Below, piece by piece: positions 1 to 15,241 of a stretch of 64,000 nt of DNA. Source of the stretch: Pseudoxanthomonas sp. JBR18 (GTDB taxonomy: Bacteria; Pseudomonadota; Gammaproteobacteria; Xanthomonadales; Xanthomonadaceae); NCBI RefSeq assembly GCF_028198165.1, contig NZ_CP116339.1:3851001-3915000 (forward strand), in the 5' to 3' direction. Under the pieces are notes generated by a model, which was not told where the DNA came from, searched no databases, and saw only the letters and a list, made by a program, of their open reading frames with translations. The position numbers were made by a program, and so were the translations under genes. Positions within the stretch are counted from its first letter, which is position 1; every line of letters starts with the position of its first letter.

Positions 1-1043
1 TGCTTCAGGTACTCCGGATCAATGCTGCGTAGTTCGAAGGCACGATCGCGCGCCTCTTGAGCCTGCCTCTTCTCGGTGGTTGCACGTTTCAGGTCCAGCC
101 CGGCTTTTTCCAGCTGGCGCGCCACTTCTGCGGCCTTCTCCTGCTGTTCGCTCAGCGCTTCACCGATGCGCTCCGTTTCGTATGCCGCACGCAATGCATC
201 CAGGTTGGTGTGGATGGTGCGTTCGCGCTTCACCTGTACGTATTTGTCGACCACCACACCGGCCCGCTCAATGCGATCGATCAGGCGACGGATCATCTCG
301 CGCACTTCGCGGAACTGTTCCAGCCGCGTTCGGAACGCCTTCACGTTGGTCAGGCGCTGCTCGATCAAATGCTGGCGCAAGGTCTCGTTGAGATCGTCCA
401 CGTCCTTGTTGAGCTTGAGCGAGCGTGCGAAAGCCGAGCGAATGGCGCGCGTGTTGGGACGCTCGCCGGGCGAAGCCAGATGGCCAACGAAAAGCTGGCG
501 CAGAAAGTCTTCACGGTTCTGGGTGAAAACCGGCGTGGTGCCGACCAGCGTGCAGGCGTCCTTGGCAACATGCTGGAACTTACGCCAAGGCAGGATGGTT
601 TCCCGGTCGGCCTCGGGATCCATATGGTCCCGGGTGGCCAGCGCCACACCCGGCAGGATGTAGAGACTGTTGAAGGTGTGATCCGGGTCGCCGACGCTGG
701 CCGAGAGCGATACCCCCGCCGTGACCGGCACGCCCGTTTCCGGATCGCGGAATACCAAGTTGATGTATGTGTTGGCCGAGGGGCGGCAGCGTTCGGCATC
801 GCTTTGCCCGTACACACCCAGGCAATACTCGCGCAAGCTGCGGGCGCGCTTCTTGCTCTCACCGGAGGCGTTGAAGTGGGTCCTGTTGCTGTCGGCAGCC
901 AGCAGCACGATCTGGAAGGCATCCAGCAACGCGGTCTTGCCGGTGCCGTTCGGTCCGAGAAAGGCGGTATTGCCGCCCAGCTGCAGATCCTCTCGCTCGT
1001 ACAGGAAGTACTGCACCAACCCCAGCGACTCAAGCTGTTTCAT
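1..1043 (-). CDS. jetC: Wadjet SMC-like ATPase JetC, N-terminal part
   Basis: This is the N-terminal 347 codons of a MukB/SMC-type ATPase; the gene runs off the left edge. It begins MKQLESLGLVQYFLYE and has a Walker A motif GPNGTGKT at about residues 30-37, as in JetC proteins of Wadjet systems. A coiled-coil stretch rich in charged residues appears toward the window edge. In Wadjet, JetA, JetB and JetC form an SMC complex that extrudes plasmid DNA, which JetD then cuts. The ATG at 1043 overlaps the end of jetB by 14 bases, so the genes are co-translated. The ATPase C-terminal half and jetD cannot be seen here. Family assignment rests on gene order and the Walker motif. Confidence 0.85.
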   Translation of the reverse strand, partial: MKQLESLGLVQYFLYEREDLQLGGNTAFLGPNGTGKTALLDAFQIVLLAADSNRTHFNASGESKKRARSLREYCLGVYGQSDAERCRPSANTYINLVFRDPETGVPVTAGVSLSASVGDPDHTFNSLYILPGVALATRDHMDPEADRETILPWRKFQHVAKDACTLVGTTPVFTQNREDFLRQLFVGHLASPGERPNTRAIRSAFARSLKLNKDVDDLNETLRQHLIEQRLTNVKAFRTRLEQFREVREMIRRLIDRIERAGVVVDKYVQVKRERTIHTNLDALRAAYETERIGEALSEQQEKAAEVARQLEKAGLDLKRATTEKRQAQEARDRAFELRSIDPEYLK

Positions 1044-1629
1044 CGGATGCGTCCTCTTCCGGTGCATTGGCATGTGCGGCCAGTTGCAGCAGGGCGGCTT
1101 CGCCCAACACGTCGACGATGCCGGGGCGGATCACCACCTGCTGACGCTGCTCGTCATGCGTGTCCTCCAGGCGGGCGATGCCGTAACGCTTCATCGCCTG
1201 CAATTGCTCGTTGAGCGCAGAACTGGCTGGCAGTTCGCGGTTGAGGAGATCCTTGTAGGCGCGCTCCAGCTCGATCATGTCGACGAAGGCCTCACCACCG
1301 ACGATCTCGGCAACATGCATCTTGTCGTCGTACAGGCGGCGCAACACCAGCGCCAGTCGTGTTTCAGAGAGGCGCATCTTGTCGGCAACATACTGGCTGG
1401 GTGTGGCCACCACGTAACCCATATGCGGGTTGTGGGTGATAGTCATGCCGAGCTGGGCGAGCAGGGCGTCGTAGTCCTTGCGGTGCCGGACGATCAACTC
1501 GTACGCGGTGCGGCTGCGCGAATCGCCGGCATAAAGCACGTGCTCCATGACCAGCCGGTAGCCGGCTTTCTGGTAGTCGCTTTCAGCATGGATCTGGCTT
1601 TGGGTGGCCAACCGCTCCCAATGGCTCAT
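1030..1629 (-). CDS. jetB: Wadjet JetB (DUF4194, MukE-like)
   Basis: A 199-aa protein of the DUF4194 family, the MukE-like kleisin-associated winged-helix subunit of Wadjet. It begins MSHWERLATQSQIHAES and has the family features: a segment about an intermediate 'RHRKDYDALLAQLGM' followed by a winged-helix-like core and an acidic tail. Its ATG sits in an ATGA overlap with the stop of jetA, and its end overlaps jetC, so the three genes form one leftward operon. Length matches the family. It would act in the cytoplasm with JetA and JetC in recognising and processing plasmid DNA. Assignment is from sequence character and operon order. Confidence 0.85.
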   Translation of the reverse strand: MSHWERLATQSQIHAESDYQKAGYRLVMEHVLYAGDSRSRTAYELIVRHRKDYDALLAQLGMTITHNPHMGYVVATPSQYVADKMRLSETRLALVLRRLYDDKMHVAEIVGGEAFVDMIELERAYKDLLNRELPASSALNEQLQAMKRYGIARLEDTHDEQRQQVVIRPGIVDVLGEAALLQLAAHANAPEEDASDETA

Positions 1630-3062
1630 CGGACAAGCTCACGCTGGATGTGGAACCGGGGATGTTCGAGATAGGGGTTGGACGTCGTGCCATTGGGCAT
1701 GAACTCGATGCGTACGCTCCTGAGCATTTGTAGTTGCGGATCAGATCGCCGCTGCGATGGCGGACACGCATCATGCGCGGCGATCAGCAGCAGGCGCTGA
1801 TAGCAGCACAGGTCGTTGATTGACTCGATGCCCAGTTCGTCGGAGGTCACCGAGATGCGATCACGCAGGTGACGGCCGACGTAGTTGGCCAGCTTCACTC
1901 TGTCGACCAGGCGGTTGTCAGCCATGCGCTTGCGCAACTGCTCCATGGCCAGTTCCCGCAATGTGGGTGGGCGCTTCTCCACGGCGGTGGCCACCGCTGG
2001 CCTGGTTGCGGTACGGGGCTTCGCCAGCAGCTCCGGCCCCGCGTGCCGGAATCCGGAGGCTGCGGGCAATGCCACGTGGCCTTCATCGAGCTGGTTGGTG
2101 GCCTGCATGGCGCGCGCAAGCAGCTTGTCCAGTTGCTTGGGCGCGCGCATCTTGTATTCGATGAAGGCAATGGCTCGCTGGTTGGCATCGCGGATCTCCT
2201 CATCCAACCGCTGCAACTGTTCGTCCACGTCCTTCAGACGCATCAGCAGGCGGGTGTCGCGCTCGTACAGATACTCCGCGCGGTTACGGTCACCGCCGGC
2301 TTTCTTCTCCTGGTACCAGGCGAGCAAGGCCTCGTGCTGTTTCGCGTCATGCTGGAGCTGCAAGGTCATGGCCACGATCTGCGAACGATGCTGCAGTGGA
2401 TGATCCTTGGTGCGCAGCTCGCTGTAATCGGCAATGAAGATCTTTTCGACGTATTCCTCGAAGAAGCCGCGCACGAACTCGCCTGGCGATGCGAGCTTCA
2501 TCAACGCATCCATCAGATCCTGTACCCGGCAGCCGGTATTGGCAATGTAGGCCATGCACTGCTTGGCCTGCTTGGCAGCTTCGGCATATTGGTCTTGGTC
2601 ACCGCTGAACGCGGCGCGCAGATTCAGGAAAATCGAGCGCACCTTGCTGCCGAGAAATTCGGGCTCGTGTTGCGCGAATTCGCACAACACGGTGTGGAAC
2701 TGGGCGATGACCGGACGCACAGTAACCATCTCTGCCACACCCCGGCGGCGCAGGCTCAGCCAACCCGAATCGACGAGAAAGCGGGCAATGTCATGCGCGC
2801 GGATGGTGATGGGCGTTTCGAGTTCTTCGTCCCATGGGTCGTCGGCGGCCAACAGGGTTTCGATCTGGCGTATGACCACCGGCTTCGGCGCTTCCTCGCC
2901 CGGCGAACGGCCACCATCGCCCCACATCTCGCCGATCAGGCGGCACAGCATGATCCAGTAGCGACGCCCGTTGCTGGCAGCCAACGGACGGAAGAGCTCC
3001 AATGGCAGGCGATCGAACAGTGGGGGGACATCATCTAGTCCTGCCTGAGTGAACGAATTCAT
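1626..3062 (-). CDS. jetA: Wadjet JetA (MukF-like kleisin)
   Basis: A 478-aa protein resembling JetA, the MukF-like kleisin of Wadjet. It has an N-terminal winged-helix-like part ('PLFDRLPLELFRPLA'), a middle 'FFEEYVEKIFIADYSEL' segment typical of the family and a helical C-terminal half. The first possible start is TTG at 3077; I chose the ATG at 3062 because an AAGGA ribosome site lies five bases upstream of it and the protein then begins MNSFTQAGLDD. It is the first gene of the leftward jetABC operon. No obvious damage is seen, so the visible part of the system looks intact. Confidence 0.85.
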   Translation of the reverse strand: MNSFTQAGLDDVPPLFDRLPLELFRPLAASNGRRYWIMLCRLIGEMWGDGGRSPGEEAPKPVVIRQIETLLAADDPWDEELETPITIRAHDIARFLVDSGWLSLRRRGVAEMVTVRPVIAQFHTVLCEFAQHEPEFLGSKVRSIFLNLRAAFSGDQDQYAEAAKQAKQCMAYIANTGCRVQDLMDALMKLASPGEFVRGFFEEYVEKIFIADYSELRTKDHPLQHRSQIVAMTLQLQHDAKQHEALLAWYQEKKAGGDRNRAEYLYERDTRLLMRLKDVDEQLQRLDEEIRDANQRAIAFIEYKMRAPKQLDKLLARAMQATNQLDEGHVALPAASGFRHAGPELLAKPRTATRPAVATAVEKRPPTLRELAMEQLRKRMADNRLVDRVKLANYVGRHLRDRISVTSDELGIESINDLCCYQRLLLIAAHDACPPSQRRSDPQLQMLRSVRIEFMPNGTTSNPYLEHPRFHIQRELVR

Positions 3063-3520
3063 CGCGATCCTTGGCAATCTCCCTTCGCCTCATTCTATAC
3101 GGCCCAGTCTTGAGAACTGAGATTTGCCTCGGTCAAGAGCGGGTGTGGCGGAGCGGGTGGTAAGAAGGGGCAGGGAGGGATAGGGCTGTGGTATCTGGAT
3201 CAGCGACTAGGCTGTGTTATGAAGGGTAGGGAAGGGAAAGATTCAGACCGCGGATTACGCGACCCTTTGCCAATGACCGTAGGGCAGCCTACCACTGTGA
3301 CCAATCCGGTATTCAAGTTAGACCTCCGAATGCCGATGAGAAGCACTTAGCCCTTGGCTTGCGTCGCCTGATGGACTTGGCGCACTACGTGAATCTTGCC
3401 GCGTTCATGGTGTAGAAAATTCCTTGGTGTGAGATGATTCAGTCTGTATAGCCCCGCGGAAAGATTACTGGTTCGTCTGGAAAAAGACCTTTCGGCATCG
3501 GATACATACAAGGAAAGTAA
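3063..3520. other. Intergenic region between jetA and a small gene
   Basis: About 460 bases with no convincing gene. It must hold the jetA promoter on the minus strand and the promoter of the small gene at 3521 on the plus strand. Base composition is visibly lower in GC than the core genes. A short reading stretch just before 3415 ends in a stop and could be the tail of a lost gene, but nothing supports this further. Confidence 0.5.
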
Positions 3521-5421: not shown

Positions 5422-5613
5422 CTATTCGGAGCGTGAGCGCAGGCGGCGCCGGATGATCGCCCTCTGCTTGGGAGTGAACGCGTCAACATGCTGCTGAAGG
5501 AGCTCCAGGATCCGAGCGTGTGCAGCTGCAGTGCGGCGCTCGAGCTCTAACTTCGCTGCGCGCTCAATCGCGCACCAGTCCGGCTGGGCGCCTTGGCCAG
5601 GCTTAATGTTCAC
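5422..5613 (-). CDS. Small protein coupled to the KfrA-like gene
   Basis: A 63-aa basic, helical protein that begins with GTG in a GTGA overlap with the stop of the KfrA-like gene upstream, so the two are translationally coupled. The sequence has a Glu/Arg/Ala-rich amphipathic helix and an Arg-rich C-terminus (RAIIRRRLRSRSE), which would suit nucleic acid or KfrA contact. Its coupling points to a role in the same integrase/KfrA mobility module. No family recognised. Confidence 0.55.
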   Translation of the reverse strand: MNIKPGQGAQPDWCAIERAAKLELERRTAAAHARILELLQQHVDAFTPKQRAIIRRRLRSRSE

Positions 5614-6590
5614 GTGGAGGTCCCCTGCTTTAGACTGCCTTTCTTACGTGCACTTCCTGCTGTCCCACGTGTACTTCGGGGGCGTACCGGCTTAGGGTCC
5701 TCGGCGCGATCTTGGTCGGCACGCTGACGCCATGCAGCTTCCAATGCCGCGGGCAGGTCCCGCAAATTGCCCAGTTGGGCTTCCAGTGCGTCTGCCCTGG
5801 TCTGTTGAACCGTCAATTCCTGACGCATGCTGGCAGCACTGGCCTGGGTGCGCTCAAGGAGTTCGTGATGGTGGCGCTCTGCCCGCGCCGCCTCCTTCTG
5901 GAGTGCCGCCAGCTGCTGCTGCATCTCTCTGGACTCCTGGCGGGCTCGGTCAACCTCGGTATGTGCACGGTCTTCCGTGGCGCGCACATACTGGATCAAC
6001 GTGTCACGTTCAGCTCGCGCGGCGTCCTGTACCTGCCGCAGCTGCACTTGAAGGGAGTCGCGAGCGCCTTCCGCCTCCGAGGCCCGCGCTGCTGCTGCGT
6101 TGCGCTGCTGGCCGAGTTCATCCAGTTGGTGCTGGAGGTGCGCAACGAGCCGTTCGAGTTCGGCGCCACGCGCAGTCGCGAGGCGCTCAGCTTGGAGAGC
6201 CGCTTGAAGGTCGCCTTCCTTCTGGGTCAGCGCTTCACGCATGCCGCGTCGATCATGTTCCAGGTCATGCTGCGCATCGAGCAGGGTGGCGCGATCAGTG
6301 GCGACGGCGTCCTCAGCAAGGGTGCGCGCTTGGTCCAAGGCTAGCGTCCACCACTGCCCTGCCAGGGCAGCGACGGCCTCAGGCACGTTGGCGGTGGCAA
6401 TGCGGGCCTCGCGATTGCTGGCGATGCGATCCCCGAGGCCTTGCCACCAGGTTTCGAGCCACCGCACCACCGTATTTGGAGAGCCGGTGCCCAGATGGGC
6501 TCGGATACGCTCCACCGTGGGGCGTTCCCCGGCGGCAACAAGGGCGTCGGCCGCGCCGTGCACGTCCGCTTCGGTGATGCCTCTAGCCAT
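5610..6590 (-). CDS. KfrA-type DNA-binding coiled-coil protein
   Basis: A 326-aa protein. Residues 1-110 match the KfrA_N DNA-binding domain (plasmid replication region DNA-binding N-terminal domain), seen in 'MARGITEADVHGAADAL' and 'IRAHLGTGSPNTVVRWLE'. Residues about 110-290 are a long Ala/Glu/Arg/Gln heptad coiled coil, and the tail is Lys/Arg-rich. KfrA of plasmids RK2 and R751 is an autoregulated repressor that forms filament-like assemblies. Here the gene is chromosomal and diverges from a tyrosine recombinase, with a perfect-armed palindrome between them that may be its operator. It likely controls the integrase or bridges recombination sites; this is inference. Confidence 0.8.
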   Translation of the reverse strand: MARGITEADVHGAADALVAAGERPTVERIRAHLGTGSPNTVVRWLETWWQGLGDRIASNREARIATANVPEAVAALAGQWWTLALDQARTLAEDAVATDRATLLDAQHDLEHDRRGMREALTQKEGDLQAALQAERLATARGAELERLVAHLQHQLDELGQQRNAAAARASEAEGARDSLQVQLRQVQDAARAERDTLIQYVRATEDRAHTEVDRARQESREMQQQLAALQKEAARAERHHHELLERTQASAASMRQELTVQQTRADALEAQLGNLRDLPAALEAAWRQRADQDRAEDPKPVRPRSTRGTAGSARKKGSLKQGTST

Positions 6591-6630
6591 GGAATTGCCT
6601 CCTGTGTCGGCGCCCTGCCCTGCAATTGAA

Positions 6631-6663
6631 GTACTCGCGATAAGTGATGATTATCGTCAGTAC
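6631..6663. promoter_or_regulatory. Palindrome between kfrA-like and integrase genes
   Basis: A 33-base inverted repeat with outer arms GTACT/AGTAC and inner arms CGATAA/TTATCG around a seven-base centre. It lies in the 104-base gap between two divergent starts, so it is well placed as an operator for the KfrA-like protein or as a binding or core site for the recombinase. AT-rich sequence just to its right would suit the integrase promoter. Confidence 0.55.
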
Positions 6664-6694
6664 ATGCCTTATTTCATAACGCGTATTACATAGT

Positions 6695-7774
6695 ATGAAG
6701 AAAAATAGCACATTGTCCTCCCTGCCGGCGACGGCCACCCATCTGGTACTGCCGGAGCAGCTGGCCCAGCAGGCTGCCGAGGCGGTGCGCGAACTACTCG
6801 CCGAAGCGGCCGCCGCCAACACCACTCGCAGCTACGCCACCGCTCTGCGTTACTGGGCCGGCTGGCACCAGGCCCGTTACGGCGTCGAACTGACCTTGCC
6901 GACGGGCGAGGCCATGGTCATCCAGTTCCTGGTCGACCACATTCAGCGCAAGAACACGACCGGCCTAGTCAGTGAGCTGCCGCCGGCGATTGATCAGGCG
7001 TTGGTGGCCGCCGGCCTCAAGGCCAAAGTCGGGCCGTTGAAGCTGTCGACCGTGGTCCAGCGCGTGGCGGTGCTGTCTACGGCGCACAAGCTCAAGCGCC
7101 TGGCCAACCCGTGCGAGTTGCCCAGTGTCAGGACGCTGCTGAGCCGCGCCCGCCGAGCCTCAGTCAAGCGCGGTGAGCGGCCGACCAAGAAGACCGCCAT
7201 CACACGCCCTGAGCTCGAGGCCATGCTGGCGACCTGTGACGACAGTTTGGAAGGGCTGCGTGATCGTGCCCTACTCTGCTTTGGCTTTGCCAGTGGCGGG
7301 CGGCGGCGCAGCGAGATCGCCGCCGCAGATATGCGGGACCTGCGTAAGGTCGGCGAGGACGGCTACATCTACCGGCTGGAGTATTCCAAGACACAGCAGG
7401 CTGGGGTGAAGGCGGATTCGACGCCGGACAAACCGATCCTGGGGCGCAGTGCTAGGGTGCTCTCCGCCTGGCTCGAAGCTGGGGGGATAACCGAGGGGGC
7501 GATTTTCCGGCGAATCTGGAAGGATCGGGTGGGCCCTGCCCTGCTCCCCGGCTCGGTGGCTGCGATCGTGAAGCGCCGGGCGGCCATGGCGGGGCTGGAG
7601 GGGGACTTTGGTGCTCATAGCTTACGCTCGGGCTTCGTCACGGAGGCGGGCAAGCAAGGCGTGCCATTGCCAGCGGTGATGGCGATGACCGAACATCGCT
7701 CGGTGGCGAGCGTGATTGGGTACTTTCAAGCAGGTGCGGTAGAAGACAATCCAGCGGCTCGCCTGCTGAAGTAG
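6695..7774 (+). CDS. Tyrosine recombinase/integrase
   Basis: A 359-aa site-specific recombinase. An N-terminal SAM-like core-binding domain spans roughly residues 25-160 ('NTTRSYATALRYWAGWH'). The catalytic domain has the full set: Arg at about 205 in GGRRRSE, Lys 232 in YSKTQ, HxxR at 308-311 in AHSLR, His 334 in EHRS and Tyr 343 in IGYFQ. All six conserved positions look intact, so it should be active. It would cut and join DNA at an attachment site, probably moving the adjacent genes. It diverges from the KfrA-like gene and sits just upstream of the four-gene defence-like block. No attachment site duplication could be identified by eye. Confidence 0.9.
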   Translation: MKKNSTLSSLPATATHLVLPEQLAQQAAEAVRELLAEAAAANTTRSYATALRYWAGWHQARYGVELTLPTGEAMVIQFLVDHIQRKNTTGLVSELPPAIDQALVAAGLKAKVGPLKLSTVVQRVAVLSTAHKLKRLANPCELPSVRTLLSRARRASVKRGERPTKKTAITRPELEAMLATCDDSLEGLRDRALLCFGFASGGRRRSEIAAADMRDLRKVGEDGYIYRLEYSKTQQAGVKADSTPDKPILGRSARVLSAWLEAGGITEGAIFRRIWKDRVGPALLPGSVAAIVKRRAAMAGLEGDFGAHSLRSGFVTEAGKQGVPLPAVMAMTEHRSVASVIGYFQAGAVEDNPAARLLK

Positions 7775-7911
7775 TCAAGCACCAATGGCGTCATCGAAGG
7801 AAACACCGTGAAGCTGTTCGTCTCGGGCGTCGACTTCCCGGCTGAGCTGCCGCTTTCTGCGGCAAACGGGGCTCAGTAAGACAACCAGAAGGAAGAAATC
7901 CAGGGGGATGT

Positions 7912-10875
7912 ATGATCAATCGCGGTTCCGAATGGCATCGATGGGAGCCGCATATCCATGCGCCCGGCACCCTGTTCAACAACCAGTTCAAAGGCCCGAA
8001 CGCCTGGGGCGACTATCTCACCAGCCTCGAGCAGGCGACCCCCGTTATCCGCGCGATCGCGCTGACCGACTATTACTGCACCGACACCTATCAGCACGTT
8101 GTGCGCGAGATGAAGGAAAACGGCCGCCTGCCGGAGGTCGCGCTCGTCCTCCCCAATGTCGAGCTACGGCTCGATGTAGCGACTGTGAAAGAACGCTGGA
8201 CCAACATCCACCTTCTCGTCTGCCCCGACGACCCGAACCATGTGGCGGAGGTAGAGCGTTTTCTCAGCCGGCTGAGATTTGAAGCCTTCGGCGATAACTT
8301 TGCCTGCTCGCGAGAAGACCTCATCAAGCTTGGACGAAAATCCAAGCCTGAGCTGAGCGATGAGCGGTCCGCGTTCCGCCACGGCGCTTCGCAGTTCAAG
8401 GTCAACTTCGGAAAATTGCGCGAGGAGTTCGGCAAAAGCGATTGGGCCAAGGAGAACATCCTGGTCGCAGTCGCCGGCGCCGAAACCGATGGCACGTCCG
8501 GCATTCGCGATGCCAATGACGCGACGTTGCGACAGGAAATCGAGAAGTTCGCGCACGTCATTTTTGCCAGCAGTCCAGCGCAGCGCGATTTCTGGCTGGG
8601 GCGGAAAAGCGGCGTCGGAGAGGACGTGCTTCGCGAGCGTTACGACGGCTGCAAGCCCTGCCTACACGGCAGCGACGCTCATGAGCAAGCGACCGTCGCC
8701 AAACCCGATGGCGACCGCTATTCATGGATCAAGGGCGCGTTGGAATTCGATGCGCTGCGCCAAGCCTATATCGATCCCGCCGGCCGGGCCTATGTCGGCT
8801 CCCATCCCCCGTTTCGGGCCACCCCCGCACGTGTCATTGCGGAGCTAGAATTGACGGGAGCGGACTGGGCGCAGACGCCGAAGCTCGCCCTCAATCCTGG
8901 TCTGGTCGCCATCATTGGCGCGCGGGGCTCGGGCAAGACCGCGCTCGCGGATGCGATCGCGGCAGGCTGCGACGCCACGAAAGGCCGCTTGAGCAATGCA
9001 TCGTTCATCGTGCGGGCGCGTGAGCATCTCGACGGCGTCGGTGTCCGGCTGACCTGGGAGACCGGGGCCCCATCTGTGCGCCCTTTGCTCGACGATGCCT
9101 TCGATCCGTCGCTCTATCCGCGGGCGCGCTATCTCTCACAGAAATTCGTCGAAGAGCTGTGCTCGGCCGATGGGCTCAATGACGAATTGCTGAGCGAGAT
9201 CGAGCGGGTCATCTTTGAAGCCCACAGCACGCTGGAACGCGACGGCGCGACAGATTTCGGGGAATTGCTGGAACTTCGGACGACGGTGTTTCGCGACAAC
9301 CGCAGCCGCGACGAGGACGCCATCGCCACCCTCTCCGATCAGATCGGGCTCGAACGCGAGAAGCAAAGCCAGATCACCGGCCTCAAGTCGCAAATCACTC
9401 ACAAGGAAGCGCTGATCGCCGGCTACATCAAAAGCCGAGACAAATTGGTGACGACAGGCGGCGCGGAGCGAATCGCGCGGCTGAACGCGCTGACCGAAGC
9501 AGCCGATCACGCCCGGACCCAAATACGGTTGTGTTCGCAGGAAAGCCAAGCCCTGCGGTCTTTACAGAACGACGTGTCTGATTTCCGGACCAATCGCGCG
9601 CCGATGGCGCTGCGGACGACCAAACAGAACTTTGTCGGCGCGCACCTGGATGACAAGGCGTGGGAGGTATTCCGGCAAACCTACGCAGGCAATGTCGATG
9701 GGACGTTGACCGACCGACTGGCCAAGGCCGAGCAGGAAACGGCCGGGTGGCGGGGTAAGGAGCTGCCACGTAAAGTGAGCGACCAGGAGCCCTATGTGGC
9801 GGACGACGCTGACCTTAAGCGATTGTCGCTGGGCGAACTTGAGGCCGAGATCGGCCGCATTCAGCGCCTCATCAACATCGATACCGACACGGCCAATCGC
9901 CTCCGAGCGATCACCACCAAGATCGGGGACGAAAACGCTGCGCTCAAGCGCCTGAAGGAAGCGCTGGCGGATTGCGAAGGCGCGGCGGCGCGGACCGCTC
10001 AACTCCAAACAGATCGAGAGCAGGCTTATTTACGGGTCTTCGAGTCCATCGTCGCGGAAGAGCAAGTGCTGCATGCGCTGTATCGCCCGCTCATGGATCG
10101 GCTGGCGCAGGCGTCCGGTACGCTGCACAAGTTATCGTTCTCGGTGTCTCGACATGCGAACGTGCATCGCTGGGCGACTGAGGGCGAAGGCTTGTTCGAC
10201 AAGCGGCGCACCGGCCCTTTCAAAGGCGTGGGCACGTTGGAGACCTGGGCAGACGCGCTGCTGAAGCCCGCGTGGGAATCGGGTGATCCGATCGCCGTCG
10301 CCGAGGCGATGGCTGAATTTCGTCAGGCCCACCAAGCCGAGCTTCTCAATCTATCCGAGGTGCCGCGATCACAGCAAGCTGATTATCGCTCCTGGCTGAG
10401 ACGGTTCGCCAAGTGGCTCTATGGCACCAGCCATATCGAGATCAGCTACAGCATCGACTATGAATCCGTCGACATCCGCAAGCTCTCTCCGGGCACGCGC
10501 GGCATCGTCCTGCTATTGCTCTATCTCGCCTTGGACGATAGCGATGACCGCCCGCTGATCATCGACCAGCCGGAAGAGAACCTGGATCCGAAGTCAATCT
10601 TCGACGAGCTGGTCGAGCTGTTCATCGCCGCGAAGAATGTGCGCCAGGTCATTATGGTGACGCATAACGCAAACCTAGTGGTGAACACCGACGCCGATCA
10701 GATCATCGTTGCGTTTCCCGGGACTCATACGCCCGGCAAGCTGCCGCCCATCCGCTACCTGTCGGGTGGGCTCGAAAGCGCGGAGATGCGCAAGCATGTC
10801 TGCGACATCCTCGAAGGCGGCGACCGCGCCTTCAAGGAGCGCGCACGGCGACTTCGCGTCCATCTCGATCGATGA
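7912..10875 (+). CDS. PHP-domain/ABC-type ATPase, TrlF-like
   Basis: A 987-aa two-part protein. Residues 1-300 form a PHP (polymerase/histidinol phosphatase) metal-dependent domain: HIH at 14-16, TDY at 52-54, Glu in PNVELR at about 84, and GSDAH at 253-257. Residues about 310-987 form an SMC/Rad50-like ATPase: Walker A GARGSGKT at 336-343, a coiled-coil middle, signature LSPGTRG at about 858, Walker B LIIDQPEENLD at about 882 and H-loop MVTHN near 916. This resembles the TrlF family of AAA-like ATPases. The PHP domain could be a nuclease or phosphoesterase gated by ATP. Its stop overlaps the start of the next gene (ATGA), and a GGGGG-type ribosome site precedes the ATG. Motifs look intact. 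Confidence 0.8.
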   Translation: MINRGSEWHRWEPHIHAPGTLFNNQFKGPNAWGDYLTSLEQATPVIRAIALTDYYCTDTYQHVVREMKENGRLPEVALVLPNVELRLDVATVKERWTNIHLLVCPDDPNHVAEVERFLSRLRFEAFGDNFACSREDLIKLGRKSKPELSDERSAFRHGASQFKVNFGKLREEFGKSDWAKENILVAVAGAETDGTSGIRDANDATLRQEIEKFAHVIFASSPAQRDFWLGRKSGVGEDVLRERYDGCKPCLHGSDAHEQATVAKPDGDRYSWIKGALEFDALRQAYIDPAGRAYVGSHPPFRATPARVIAELELTGADWAQTPKLALNPGLVAIIGARGSGKTALADAIAAGCDATKGRLSNASFIVRAREHLDGVGVRLTWETGAPSVRPLLDDAFDPSLYPRARYLSQKFVEELCSADGLNDELLSEIERVIFEAHSTLERDGATDFGELLELRTTVFRDNRSRDEDAIATLSDQIGLEREKQSQITGLKSQITHKEALIAGYIKSRDKLVTTGGAERIARLNALTEAADHARTQIRLCSQESQALRSLQNDVSDFRTNRAPMALRTTKQNFVGAHLDDKAWEVFRQTYAGNVDGTLTDRLAKAEQETAGWRGKELPRKVSDQEPYVADDADLKRLSLGELEAEIGRIQRLINIDTDTANRLRAITTKIGDENAALKRLKEALADCEGAAARTAQLQTDREQAYLRVFESIVAEEQVLHALYRPLMDRLAQASGTLHKLSFSVSRHANVHRWATEGEGLFDKRRTGPFKGVGTLETWADALLKPAWESGDPIAVAEAMAEFRQAHQAELLNLSEVPRSQQADYRSWLRRFAKWLYGTSHIEISYSIDYESVDIRKLSPGTRGIVLLLLYLALDDSDDRPLIIDQPEENLDPKSIFDELVELFIAAKNVRQVIMVTHNANLVVNTDADQIIVAFPGTHTPGKLPPIRYLSGGLESAEMRKHVCDILEGGDRAFKERARRLRVHLDR

Positions 10876-12473
10876 GGACGGACGACAACATGGACAGCGA
10901 ATTAGATCCCGATCGCATTGGCCGCATCGGTGAACGGCAGTTCAAAGTGCTCTGCGAGCGCGCAGGCCTCTACTGCAACAAGAGCGTCGTCGACGTAATG
11001 GGGTGGGATTTCATTGTGGAGTTCCCGATGGTGCCGGCCGGCCAGGCGCTACCTCTCGATCAACGCCCCACCAACGCCGCTCGCGTTCAGTTGAAGTCGA
11101 CACTCGGCCGCGCCGGCAATCGTATCCGCCTCAGCCTGTCTGCCATCGATCGCTTGGCCAAGGACCCTCGGCCGGCGCTCATCGTCGTGTTTCGGCTGCG
11201 AGCCGATGGCGAACTCCAATCCGGTTATCTTGTCCACCTTATCGGCAATGAGCTCGCGCGCGTTCTCAGGCGATTGAGACGGGCGGAGGCCCGCAAGGCC
11301 CACGACATCAACCACACCGATATCAGTTACGATTATGAGAAATTGGGGGTGCGCTTCGAGCCGAATCCCGCCGACTTATTAGCAGCCTTGAGTGCAGCCT
11401 GCGGACAAAATCCTGGCGCCTACACAATCGACAAGCAACGGCAACTCGCCGAGCTTGGCTATGAGAACGGCCAGTTCGAGGCCGAGGCACTTATCCAGAT
11501 CGAGGGTCCGGAGCATTTCAGCAGTCTATTGCTCGGCCTCGCGCCCTTGAAGCCGCTCCGAATCCGCGTGTTCGACAACCGGTTCGGCATACGCCTTCCT
11601 TATCAAGGAACCTTGTTCGACGACATAGAAGAGCTAAGGCTTACGCCTCCCACTCTGGGTTTCTGCGAGATTTCGATCCGCGGACCCGGCTTCGGACAAG
11701 CGACGCGGTTCGACGGCGAAATGTTCATCGGGCCGCCGATGGCCGAGCCGCATGGAGCAGAGCTCCTCATCCGCACTTCAGACTTCCTCATTCGGCTGAC
11801 ACCACCGGCGCTCAAGTTCGAGAGCGTCGGCTCGATCGATGACATGGAGCATTCCCTGGAGGAGTGGGCGGAGCTGCTTCGCGCGTTCACGCTCATGGCG
11901 ATAGGGCGAGCGACCCTGACGATTGCCGGAAATGACCGCATCCCATCGATTACCTTCCCGGTCGATCAACCCATCACTGGACCGTACCTCGAAGAGATTC
12001 CGCTGATCTCCGGATTCTTGGACGGGTGGCTTCAGCTTCTCACAAATGCAGGCCTTCGCTCCACGGCTAGGTTCAAGTTCGATGCGTTCTGGGAGGCAAA
12101 CGGAGCCCGTATGGCGGTGGACATCCTGCTCAATCCGAAATCGCAGACTCGCTTCGAGTTCCAGACCCTCGAGATTGAAGAACGGTCGTGGCCGCCCGAA
12201 GGCCTGTATTTCAACAACTCGGTATTTGCCGACACCAGTATAACCTTCAGCGCGAAGGTTTTTTTTGAGAAGTCCGATGATCCGGAATGGCAGTATCGGT
12301 CGACCCACTTCGAAGCTCTCGATGTACGACCGAAGGTCGACGACCTTGAAGAATACGGAATGGACCAGGCGACCGCCTGCGATTTGAAGCTCCTCATCGA
12401 CCCGAGGAACATGACATTGGGGTCTCCGAGGGACACCACCGAACCGCCCGCTAAATCCCAACACCGAGAGTGA
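10872..12473 (+). CDS. PD-(D/E)XK nuclease-like protein, DUF4365-like
   Basis: A 533-aa protein, translationally coupled to the PHP-ATPase by an ATGA overlap (an internal ATG at 10890 is an alternative start). The N-terminal ~170 residues look like a DUF4365-type restriction-endonuclease fold: Glu 21 in GERQF, Asp 46 in GWDFIVEF and Gln-x-Lys at 73-75 in VQLKST. The remaining ~360 residues are a beta-rich region I do not recognise. Pairing an ATPase sensor with such a nuclease is common in defence systems, so this pair is likely a two-gene antiviral or anti-plasmid system. The nuclease call is from motif spacing only. Confidence 0.6.
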   Translation: MRTDDNMDSELDPDRIGRIGERQFKVLCERAGLYCNKSVVDVMGWDFIVEFPMVPAGQALPLDQRPTNAARVQLKSTLGRAGNRIRLSLSAIDRLAKDPRPALIVVFRLRADGELQSGYLVHLIGNELARVLRRLRRAEARKAHDINHTDISYDYEKLGVRFEPNPADLLAALSAACGQNPGAYTIDKQRQLAELGYENGQFEAEALIQIEGPEHFSSLLLGLAPLKPLRIRVFDNRFGIRLPYQGTLFDDIEELRLTPPTLGFCEISIRGPGFGQATRFDGEMFIGPPMAEPHGAELLIRTSDFLIRLTPPALKFESVGSIDDMEHSLEEWAELLRAFTLMAIGRATLTIAGNDRIPSITFPVDQPITGPYLEEIPLISGFLDGWLQLLTNAGLRSTARFKFDAFWEANGARMAVDILLNPKSQTRFEFQTLEIEERSWPPEGLYFNNSVFADTSITFSAKVFFEKSDDPEWQYRSTHFEALDVRPKVDDLEEYGMDQATACDLKLLIDPRNMTLGSPRDTTEPPAKSQHRE

Positions 12474-12509
12474 AAGACGGCGACGGCCGGCTAAGGAACG
12501 AGCACCAAA

Positions 12510-12572
12510 TGAGCATGCAATGGTTATTGGAAAAAGCGCCCGGATCTCAGGCGCTAAGCGACCTGGGCTAGC
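12510..12572 (+). pseudogene. Possible start of a lost gene
   Basis: A 20-codon reading (MSMQWLLEKAPGSQALSDLG) then TAG, preceded by an AAGGA-like site. From memory, defence-associated HEPN-type (pEK499_p136-like) proteins often begin with a similar WLLEKAPGF segment, so this may be the surviving N-terminus of such a gene. It could equally be a short leader peptide or chance. Confidence 0.25.
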
Positions 12573-12590: not shown

Positions 12591-13496
12591 ATGAGAGATC
12601 CCGAACTACTAGAAATCTATCTGAAACTGGCCGGCGACACCCGCAATGCCGCGGATGATGCTGTCCTGCTAGCTCGCTTGGCTGAGCTTGCCCGCGAGAT
12701 GCCTACCGAACCGGGATCGGACCACCTGAATTGTGGCCCAATGGCCGATGCCCTGCATGCGATCGCTCACTCCCCGGTCCTATTCCCAATCGCTATTTCT
12801 GCATGGCTTTCGAGCGAGGAAGACGTCCCGCTTGGCAAGGCGCTGCTGCATCAGGTAAGCGTAGCCCATCTTAGCCAAATCTATCCCCAGCCGTATGACC
12901 TGGCAGGGGTCGATGAGCAGCAGGCGGTGATAGCCGCCCGGCGTCTGTGCGCACTCGCGGCTGCACCAGCAGTTTCGCTGGGTTGGGCGCTGAGTTTGGC
13001 GCACCAGTTCTCGCAGAGCGCCCTCGTCGCAGGGGCTCTGCCCGACTTACTCGACTATCACGTCTTCGAACTGCCCAGCAGCACGCATAAGCTTTTGGCG
13101 TCAAATGAGTCGGTATTCCAGGAGCTTGACGCCTCTATCACAACCTTGGATCGCTTGGATCAGCAAGATGCAGATTTGAACGCGCTTCCTCATCTTCAAG
13201 AGTTCGAGATGACAGCGGACATGCGGTTGATCTTCTCCACGTTGAAGCGAAGCGAGCACCGTGAAATACATCGAAAAGCCGATGATCGATCCATACTTGG
13301 TCTGATCGCTCGCCGCATCAATCTCAAATACGGCGGACACCCCGTCGTGGAAGTCAGAGGAAAGGCAGGCAGCACCGAAACGACAATGGAGATGTTCTCG
13401 CATGAGCTCTCAATTGAGCTCCCGCTCTCGGAGGGCACCGACCCGGTGCTGGGCAACATGAAGCGCAATCGCCTGTGGAAAGGGGGAGGCGCATGA
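12591..13496 (+). CDS. Unrecognised protein, first gene of a coupled pair
   Basis: A 301-aa mainly helical protein of unknown family. I chose the ATG at 12591 because GTGGAGAG lies at proper distance; an ATG six bases earlier is in the same frame. The body has Leu-rich helices, a charged central part and a beta-rich end. I see no catalytic motif. Its stop overlaps the next start (ATGA), so it works with the following nuclease-like gene. The pair sits after the PHP-ATPase pair in the same direction and probably belongs to a separate system. Confidence 0.55.
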   Translation: MRDPELLEIYLKLAGDTRNAADDAVLLARLAELAREMPTEPGSDHLNCGPMADALHAIAHSPVLFPIAISAWLSSEEDVPLGKALLHQVSVAHLSQIYPQPYDLAGVDEQQAVIAARRLCALAAAPAVSLGWALSLAHQFSQSALVAGALPDLLDYHVFELPSSTHKLLASNESVFQELDASITTLDRLDQQDADLNALPHLQEFEMTADMRLIFSTLKRSEHREIHRKADDRSILGLIARRINLKYGGHPVVEVRGKAGSTETTMEMFSHELSIELPLSEGTDPVLGNMKRNRLWKGGGA

Positions 13497-15241
13497 GCTT
13501 GCAACTGGTCCTGCAGAACTATCTAGCTAGTCTCAAAGAACGCGATGAGCTCGATGCGCTACTGCCGGAACTGCTCATCGCGATGGGACATTCCGTGCTG
13601 AGCCGTCCGCAAGTGGGCGTGGTACAGGCGGGCGTAGACATCCTTTCCAGCTATACCGATGCCGACGGGAACGAAGAGCTCTACCTGTTCATCATCAAGT
13701 TTGGCGATATTGGGAGGGAGGACCTGTTCACCGGGAAGCAGGCAATCCTGCCTTCAGCACGTGAGGCCTACACCGACTTTGCCAGGCATCGGCTTACCGA
13801 AGCTCAAAAGGCGCTGCCCAAGCGGGTGGTGATTGTGTCCAGCGGCGTTGTAAAGCAGGAAGCCACATCCGGCTTTGCTGGAATGGCAGATGAAGTGAAC
13901 GCACAACCAGGTTTTACCTTCGACTTCTGGGGCATAGACCAGCTGACACCACTGATTGAAAAGTATGTCTTTGACGAGTCTTTGCTCTTGGCCAATGGCA
14001 AATCAGACCTGCGTGCAGCCCTGGCCGGTTTGGAGGATTCGCAATCTTCAATTCACCGATTTTTCCGCTTTATCGAGACGTCCGTGGCTACTCCTGAGAG
14101 CGAAGCCAATGACAGTGCCCCCACGCGCCGACGCAAGTTCTTGCGGCGGTGCGCAGCGGCCGCCATGGGACACGGCGTGCTCGTGGTGTGGGGCAAGTCA
14201 GAGAACAACTTGAAGCCGGCCGTGGTGGGTGGTGAGTATCTTGCGCTACGCTTGTGGGCCAAGGCTGTGGATCTGGGCCTCACCGAGGATGAAGAGTTCC
14301 AGGAACGTCTGGCGGCAACGCTCGGAGTCCATCTGCAGGCCCTGTTTGACTACTTCGAGAAAGTGCTTGCTGTCCTTAAGAATCAACGGGCCTTGGTCCA
14401 GCACCGGCCCAACCCTGTTTTCTATGCTCAGCTGGTTTTCGAAGAGCTGGGACGCTTGGCGACCCTGCTACTTCTCATTCAGCATGACCCGGCCAGTCAA
14501 GAGATGCGTAAGGTCGTCCTGGATGAGCTGATCGAGGTGATCAATGCGAACTCTATTTCCCTTCGACCTTTGCTAGATGGTCAAGGTATCGACTTGTCGC
14601 TAGTCTTCTCGGCCCTAATGGGAGAAGGCGCCATAGACGCAGCGCGCAGTTTGTTGAGGGGCGTGTTAATCCAACTGCGAAACGCCTTGGTGCGCAATGA
14701 GCGCCTGCCGGTGGATACCGACTTGATGGAGGATGCCATTGCCGTGCATTTTACCGGCGATGCCGAAGGACGCGACTTCTTCCAAAACTCTACCTTGATC
14801 CCCATGCTGGCCAGCGTGGCGGCGGTCCTTAACGATGACGAAGACCTGAACTTCCTGAGGGGACTCGGCCCCCAACTTGAAGGGGTAACGTTGGAGCGCT
14901 GGTATCCCACCAACGAAATCGAACGCTTCACCGGCGCCAACCGCAGTCTTAACGAGATAAGTGTCTCGCGCGTAGTGGATGGCTTCCAACAGGATGCAGC
15001 CGCCGAAGTGCAAGCTTCTCTTCGTATCCCCGCCAACGCCGGCGAGCCTGCCGGCCTCAAGTGGTCTGGGAATCCGTGGGAGGTCCTGACCGCGCTCTCA
15101 GCTCGGCTGCACAGGCACCCTCTGCCGACTTGGTATCTGGCGAGTTCGCTTGAACGTGTTGCGACATCGCAAGAGCCCGAGTCCGTCCCACCAGCCGAAG
15201 GCAGTTCAACCGCACCACAAGCCGGACCAGGAACCGGTTGA
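13493..15241 (+). CDS. Nuclease-like protein, second gene of a coupled pair
   Basis: A 582-aa protein. The start ATG at 13493 overlaps the previous stop (ATGA) and has a GGGGAGG ribosome site. The N-terminal ~150 residues resemble a restriction-endonuclease fold: Asp 49 in GVDILSS followed by LYLFIIKFGDIG with Lys 69, then beta-strands (VVIVSSG) and a FWGIDQLTPLIEKY segment seen in similar predicted nuclease domains. The C-terminal 400 residues are helical and unrecognised, ending in a Pro/Ser/Thr-rich tail. A hairpin follows. A two-gene defence system is likely; function unproven. Confidence 0.55.
   Translation: MSLQLVLQNYLASLKERDELDALLPELLIAMGHSVLSRPQVGVVQAGVDILSSYTDADGNEELYLFIIKFGDIGREDLFTGKQAILPSAREAYTDFARHRLTEAQKALPKRVVIVSSGVVKQEATSGFAGMADEVNAQPGFTFDFWGIDQLTPLIEKYVFDESLLLANGKSDLRAALAGLEDSQSSIHRFFRFIETSVATPESEANDSAPTRRRKFLRRCAAAAMGHGVLVVWGKSENNLKPAVVGGEYLALRLWAKAVDLGLTEDEEFQERLAATLGVHLQALFDYFEKVLAVLKNQRALVQHRPNPVFYAQLVFEELGRLATLLLLIQHDPASQEMRKVVLDELIEVINANSISLRPLLDGQGIDLSLVFSALMGEGAIDAARSLLRGVLIQLRNALVRNERLPVDTDLMEDAIAVHFTGDAEGRDFFQNSTLIPMLASVAAVLNDDEDLNFLRGLGPQLEGVTLERWYPTNEIERFTGANRSLNEISVSRVVDGFQQDAAAEVQASLRIPANAGEPAGLKWSGNPWEVLTALSARLHRHPLPTWYLASSLERVATSQEPESVPPAEGSSTAPQAGPGTG

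Follow-up and report, generated by a model that had tools for sequence, protein, structure and literature searches.

TrlF takes its name from a temperature restriction locus of Photorhabdus; the available part of that report (PMC7554251) gives no trlF mutants among temperature-tolerant clones and leaves the role of TrlF open. For TmuRE, a DUF4365 protein of a short prokaryotic Argonaute (pAgo) system, the portion of PMC10810196 at hand names Q62 and K64 as the predicted active site, with Q62A/K64A made as the inactive form, and describes a TmuRE-Ago complex that degrades DNA non-specifically once the pAgo has found its target. PD-(D/E)XK and HEPN nucleases are common add-ons (auxiliary or backup effectors) around BREX, as stated in the accessible sections of PMC12839542. 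Here we analyse a locus in which TrlF and a predicted DUF4365-type nuclease, which we call the partner, are encoded next to each other. It lies in a 64,000-nucleotide stretch of the Pseudoxanthomonas sp. JBR18 genome (one contig of 4.6 Mb, NZ_CP116339.1; positions 3,851,001 to 3,915,000), referred to as the window, with positions counted from its first letter.

The original prediction for this locus, made from the letters of the window, was that the two genes form a dedicated defence system. We find instead that the partner is a swappable add-on that occurs beside several unrelated defence systems, and also alone, and is not in a fixed pair with TrlF. From its sequence, the partner is probably a DUF4365-type PD-(D/E)XK DNase, an exchangeable module of anti-phage or anti-plasmid operons. 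The alternative readings weighed below overlap, and the likelihoods we attach to them are not meant to sum to one.

Neighbourhoods of the partner and of TrlF

Scanning 84,980 species by pattern, with one genome per species, yielded 40 partner loci, remnants included (numbered here with an L), which together with the window makes 41; of 398 genomes of the phylum searched by profile, five matched, the own genome and four distant relatives. TrlF lies directly upstream of the partner in five of the 41: the window, L003 (where TrlF is frame-broken), L004, L005 and L008. The neighbours differ between loci whose partners are 75-91% identical. A DUF2326-type ATPase stands beside the partner together with a gene called c2 and a PD-Lambda-3_B-type gene, c1, in L009, L010, L011 and L013; it is preceded by a CTD10 (ABC-3C) gene in L009, L011 and L013, and is only 34% alike in L010. 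L012 and L017 have an SMC-like ATPase with c2 and c1, L006 and L018 a PDDEXK_1 and UvrD pair (an AddAB-like helicase-nuclease), and L023 a type IIG-like enzyme with c2. L002 carries TmtA of the Tiamat system with NERD-UvrD, and a pAgo-type SIR2 protein upstream. Gabija is found on the opposite strand about 3 kb from the partner in L025, AbiE adjoins it divergently in L007, and L027 has a BrxHI/DrmD-like helicase at a distance of 5 kb. The family scans covered one member per group (L011, L012, L018), and the others were assigned by similarity.

The partner could be a plug-in nuclease that moves as a single gene. It would then serve five or more defence cores unrelated to one another (TrlF; ABC-3C/PD-Lambda-3; Tiamat with NERD-UvrD; the AddAB-like helicase-nuclease; the type IIG-like methyltransferase), with its C-terminal domain reading a trigger that they have in common; we consider this extension less likely than not. 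A variant of the DNase reading is that the upstream ATPase or helicase switches the partner on via a shared signal, e.g. DNA ends, rather than the partner sensing for itself. It would suit the relatives that share at least 75% identity: 13 of these 15, the exceptions being L007 and L042, come after a co-directional operon that includes a large ATPase or helicase (TrlF, DUF2326/ABC-3C, SMC-like, UvrD or NERD-UvrD). It would also suit the triggering of DUF4365 by its partner in short-pAgo systems, as told in the available text of PMC10810196; we nevertheless find it rather doubtful, given the lone or divergent copies in L007, L016, L021, L042 and L047.

Seen from the side of TrlF, the association is no closer. 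TrlF scores above cut-off in 20 of 369 genomes of the class. Besides the window these give 19 TrlF loci, and in flanks of at most 1.5 kb, shorter where a contig ended, the partner profile has no match at any of them. Among plasmids, TrlF is found in 242 records (E <= 1e-20), of which seven loci were opened, all without the partner; the partner itself is found in 12 of 72,556 plasmid records (E <= 1e-5). The Paracoccus plasmid pAMI8 carries a TrlF that is 93% identical to that of the window and lacks the partner, with homology to the window covering the TrlF gene plus no more than 32 bp ahead of it and 4 bp behind it. A Sphingomonas plasmid, found by its partner match, has a divergent TrlF about 4 kb from the partner, while a Janthinobacterium plasmid has the partner alone, beside an imuA-imuB-dnaE2 cassette. 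Toxin-antitoxin genes are annotated beside TrlF in three of the seven plasmid loci (AbiE in one, VapC-type genes in the others); such genes lie directly upstream of TrlF in L043 (divergent), L132 and L134, and by eye in L045 and L008.

The partner tree points the same way. It was built from 29 chosen rows; near-copies, fragments and many distant loci were omitted (L020, L022, L026, L028-L030, L032-L034, L036-L040, L044 and L079-L082). The TrlF label changes three times on it, at least two of the changes being forced by well-supported branches, and TrlF-linked partners intermix with copies, 81-91% identical to that of the window, that are lone or linked to Tiamat or AddAB. Because just 15 of 500 label shuffles needed as few changes, the TrlF-linked partners are clustered, although they do not form one clade. 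By blastn, homology between the window and L006, L007 and L018 extends over 10890-12426, with edges close to the ends of the partner gene, and over 10874-12556 with L002. The gene is shuffled between operons, and it also occurs by itself.

An obligate TrlF-partner pair is therefore rejected by the partner loci, the TrlF loci and the tree alike. A dedicated two-gene system, in which TrlF would sense invasion and license the nuclease, is improbable in our view: the two overlapping genes are under purifying selection, the order TrlF-partner is kept in L003, L004, L005 and L008, and on the Methylosinus plasmid pOB3b2 another DUF4365 protein follows TrlF after 315 bp, but these points stand against five loci of 41, none of 19, the partnerless pAMI8 and a TrlF label that is not monophyletic. 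On pOB3b2 (L133, 8268-11044), the genes that follow TrlF encode the DUF4365 protein, of about 444 residues, and an unannotated product of 481 residues; the two are possibly a short-pAgo system.

The partner and TrlF proteins

The partner of the window has no match in Pfam, PADLOC or NCBIfam, and its family is nameless in all three, as judged from 24 members, 13 members and the window protein, respectively. In a search of 5.8 billion proteins, 148 match it at E <= 0.001, its own copy included, and 120 of these are listed; the 133-homolog set used below is likewise made up of listed proteins, the window's own included. Among the matches listed, identities of 80-92% recur across Xanthomonas, Sinorhizobium, Bradyrhizobium, Azospirillum and Janthinobacterium, a spread over distant genera that is as expected of a mobile gene, and every homolog with a source name is a 'hypothetical protein'.

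The N-terminus of the partner is a predicted DUF4365-type PD-(D/E)XK nuclease domain. In the 133 homologs, E21 is kept in 121 and D46, Q73 and K75 in 123 each, the remainder being gaps. In 24 divergent members the invariant positions include D41, G44, D46, Q73 and K75, while at position 21 22 members have E, one has Q and one is gapped. Taking the alignments of 51 and 24 rows together, D46, Q73 and K75 are invariant and E21 differs in one row (L041). Pfam DUF4365 (PF14280) is matched at E <= 1 by nine of the 24 (best 2.8e-4) and, when ten members were scanned singly, by three, at N-terminal residues and below the Pfam cut-off; the PADLOC candidate family PDC-M02A is matched weakly by four of 13 (best 2.3e-4). 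Against 25 diverse DUF4365 domains (22 of 28 matches plus three others; L155 and L158-L162, mostly short or weak, were left out beforehand), hhalign gave 96.2% with E 2.5e-9, compared to at most 0.4% for five control families, and the E, GxD and QxK of the partner fell in register with the target consensus. Mrr belongs to the same superfamily as the PD-(D/E)XK nucleases; Mrr_cat, represented by a weak set of eight sequences, gave no hhalign match, and can be taken equally as a relative that was missed and as a control. The E-D-QxK spacing and the likeness to DUF4365 that had been noticed from the letters are thus upheld, the check for an endonuclease fold being a comparison of profiles.

The C-terminal two thirds of the partner match neither APAZ-type DUF4365 proteins nor any entry of the PDB. 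The whole partner matches the DUF4365 proteins of the L133 type only at residues ~11-124, and an APAZ-like C-terminus was rejected, as hhalign of the C-terminal part against six such proteins, labelled APAZ from size and neighbour, gave 0.2%. No Aga model was among the PADLOC matches of 13 partner members.

The ratio of nonsynonymous to synonymous substitution rates (dN/dS) is 0.13-0.19 for the partner (seven comparisons; L005 was dropped for an in-frame stop), which is under purifying selection, and 0.06-0.09 for TrlF (four comparisons). The two open reading frames overlap by ATGA, as originally described. Because an ATG in 11 of 13 relatives compared aligns with the internal ATG of the window partner at 10890, the latter is probably the conserved start, and the ATGA overlap may not be where the partner really begins.

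The TrlF of the window is a member of its family by the curated whole-protein cut-off of NF045780 (TrlF_fam_ATP, 350 bits), which it exceeds with a match over residues 4-981. As predicted, its metal and ATPase motifs are complete: PHP-type residues H14, H16, D53, E84, H100 and HGSDAH 252-257, and ABC-ATPase residues Walker A 336-343, Q410, S859/G861, D885/E888 and H918, as we assign these motifs. Across 25 aligned TrlF sequences, the Walker A lysine, Q410, S859, G861, D885 and H918 are invariant, as are, in the PHP region, E84 and D255; the HxH pair, though whole in the window protein, is not kept in all (H14 in 16, H16 in 18 of the 25). We suggest that TrlF is most likely a DNA- or damage-sensing effector of its own, in which a PHP phosphoesterase/nuclease-like domain is carried on an SMC/ABC-type ATPase.

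A shortened locus in the window

In L004 and L008 the gene order is c2 - c45 - TrlF - partner - c40; in L008 an insertion interrupts c40. L003 has c45 - TrlF - partner. Here c45 is a 350-codon gene directly upstream of TrlF in all three, and c40 encodes a HEPN-like protein of 166-179 residues after the partner in L002, L004 and L008. The window shares 7791-12556 with L008 at 91.7% (blastn): the shared stretch begins in the 3' end of c45, about 17 bp past the stop of the recombinase gene, and ends in the first codons of c40, just before OloA. By this comparison the window pair is a shortened version of the five-gene locus, consisting of TrlF, the partner and stubs of the flanking genes. Since the shared stretch starts inside the c45 stub beside the recombinase, the nearness to the recombinase marks a breakpoint. 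We propose that the partner was carried together with TrlF out of a c2-c45-TrlF-partner-c40 locus, that both outer sides would have been cut away, and that the two genes would remain intact between the recombinase and the downstream OloA/OloB genes. The pair in the window could also be a decaying remnant without function, which is compatible with the DNase reading of the family. In favour of this, the genes on the two outer sides are reduced to stubs, the partner is broken or a remnant in L032 and L038-L040, and that of L005 has an in-frame stop near the start; with both proteins full length, all motifs present and dN/dS well below 1, we regard such decay as unlikely. The features of the locus are collected in Table 1.

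Table 1. Features of the window around TrlF and the partner (positions within the window).
Feature	Position	Strand	Evidence
Wadjet JetA + JetB (context)	1030..3077	-	PADLOC JetA1 1.2e-206, JetB1 4.2e-76
KfrA_N DNA-binding protein, divergent from recombinase	5610..6590	-	PF11740 2.4e-22
Tyrosine recombinase	6695..7774	+	PF00589 1.1e-11
c45 stub, 3' end only; stop interrupts (by eye)	7791..7911	+	blastn boundary 7791 vs L003, L004, L008
TrlF family, PHP + ABC/SMC-type ATPase, 987 aa	7912..10875	+	NF045780 671.5 bits
Partner, 533 aa: predicted N-terminal DUF4365-type PD-(D/E)XK domain (~residues 7-115) + C-terminal part without known relatives	10872..12473	+	
c40 stub	12470..12562	+	tblastn 68% over 31 aa; blastn ends 12555-12556 vs L002, L004, L008
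OloA-like, 303 aa	12585..13496	+	PADLOC OloA 4.3e-18, profile 340-589 of 596
OloB	13475..15241	+	PADLOC OloB 4.4e-86

The placement of the pair after a recombinase and near Wadjet agrees with the original prediction, which did not mention the OloA-like/OloB pair that follows TrlF and the partner directly after the c40 stub; we take this pair to be the Olokun system. The OloA of the window is about half as long as the PADLOC model, and 300-residue homologs on two Klebsiella plasmids suggest that this is a normal short form. The recombinase proteins of three congeners (L120, L121, L122) are 90-92% identical to that of the window, with DNA similarity stopping within ~10 bp of the gene. The genes further on are of CBASS type in L120 (by family scan) and L122 (by likeness to L120), whereas L121 has a PDC-S37/Mokosh-like gene there, together with genes that by eye are SbcCD-like; the recombinase and its adjoining KfrA_N gene (together 5610-7774 in the window) thus recur in congeners with different defence-type cargo, including a CBASS cyclase.

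Some companions of the partner recur as well. c2 (271-274 residues) accompanies it or its remnant in 12 loci (L004, L008-L013, L017, L023 and L038-L040), and has no match in Pfam (L011 copy) or PADLOC (L008 copy). Because c1 matches the Aga_HEPN model (6.6e-13) and c40 contains an R-N-N-L-F-H stretch, which we take to be of HEPN type, these two frequent companions may be RNases. Remnants of the partner's 5' end are found after c1 in L032, L038, L039 and L040, as decayed copies.

Proposed role and comparison with known systems

In the reading we favour, the C-terminal part of the partner would recognise a signal linked to infection, either foreign DNA or a neighbouring sensor, upon which the N-terminal domain would be free to degrade DNA; the partner would then back up, as a second layer, any system expressed alongside it. 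We regard such a triggered DNase as the most economical reading because the DUF4365 protein of TmuRE-Ago is triggered and nuclease add-ons are found around BREX.

Several observations weigh against this reading. The partner was found in none of 50,697 phage records, and a pattern scan of viral contigs confirmed no partner. None of the ten relatives scanned singly exceeds the Pfam DUF4365 gathering score (best 18.6 of 24.3 bits), no sequence relative in the PDB was found with the family profile, and a single sequence gave only chance-level matches. A narrow DUF4365-DUF1817 alignment as hhalign target also gave no match, after which the targets were widened and the query was cut to the N-terminal domain, controls being run with both. 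The neighbourhoods are mixed too. The neighbours of 14 partner loci, picked by eye for size and nearness, were given to PADLOC: five loci (L002, L004, L007, L011, L025) have a specific defence family within ~7 kb, three more (L006, L023, L027) have defence-type ATPase, methyltransferase or helicase families that are shared between systems, and six (L008, L012, L014, L018, L019, L035) gave none, weak matches or generic helicase/ATPase matches. The counts point in the direction expected, of homologous loci near defence genes, but, coming from neighbours picked by eye and with no background rate, they are not a test of enrichment. Neighbours that are not defence genes include a relaxase in L019, HAD/PfkB genes in L014, parAB-like genes in L031 (by eye), and imuB-dnaE2 within ~6 kb of seven loci (L006, L010, L011, L013, L016, L018, L042).

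These last neighbours, together with the relaxase in L019 and its near-copies L020 and L026 and with the presence of the partner on plasmids, would fit a role outside defence, in DNA processing or repair on mobile elements. We consider this very improbable: most close relatives follow defence-type operons, and in six alpha-proteobacterial loci (L006, L010, L011, L013, L016, L018) the sole LexA-type box lies just before the imu cassette and not at the partner. SOS control of the partner was likewise rejected from a search of ten loci for LexA-type boxes: the six just named have their one box before the imu cassette, and the remaining four (L002, L004, L008, L042) have boxes elsewhere. The imuB-dnaE2 genes, named from Pfam domains and the annotation of L042, occur in both orientations relative to the partner.

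If a single nuclease gene does move between unrelated defence operons, it offers a way into how defence islands are pieced together, and into the question of a trigger common to different sensors. It also carries a warning that two-gene systems should not be named from a single locus, as the pair in the window is what is left of a longer one.

Compared with described systems, the TrlF of the window resembles the family of the Photorhabdus locus in its whole-length match, well above the cut-off, and in its combination of PHP and ATPase parts. It differs in its neighbours: the Photorhabdus TrlF sits with TrlG (AlbA_2/HATPase) and TrlR, as far as the available part of PMC7554251 goes, whereas that of the window adjoins a predicted DUF4365-type protein, and no AlbA_2/HATPase domain of the trlG type was found by Pfam in nine window proteins scanned, including both TrlF flanks. 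It also matches the Ppl and Spaf_1101 families in the C-terminal ATPase part, but lies far under their cut-offs (110 of 1000 bits and 107 of 475 bits, respectively).

The partner, with its DUF4365-type N-terminus and Q-x-K, is like the DUF4365-APAZ nuclease of short pAgo systems (TmuRE-Ago, SPARDA-like; available text of PMC10810196). Unlike in SPARDA-like systems, there is no pAgo gene adjacent to it in the window, where the neighbours are TrlF and OloA/OloB. It is also like the auxiliary nucleases around BREX, where nucleases of the PD-(D/E)XK and HEPN types join different defence cores, and unlike them, going by the accessible sections of PMC12839542, in that a single sequence family travels among several unrelated systems and has lone members as well. 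In the open-licence PMC literature searched, we found no description of a pairing of TrlF with a DUF4365-type nuclease, nor of the partner family and its range of contexts. The auxiliary nuclease of defence operons is a known kind, while this particular family and the range of contexts in which it is found appear to be new.

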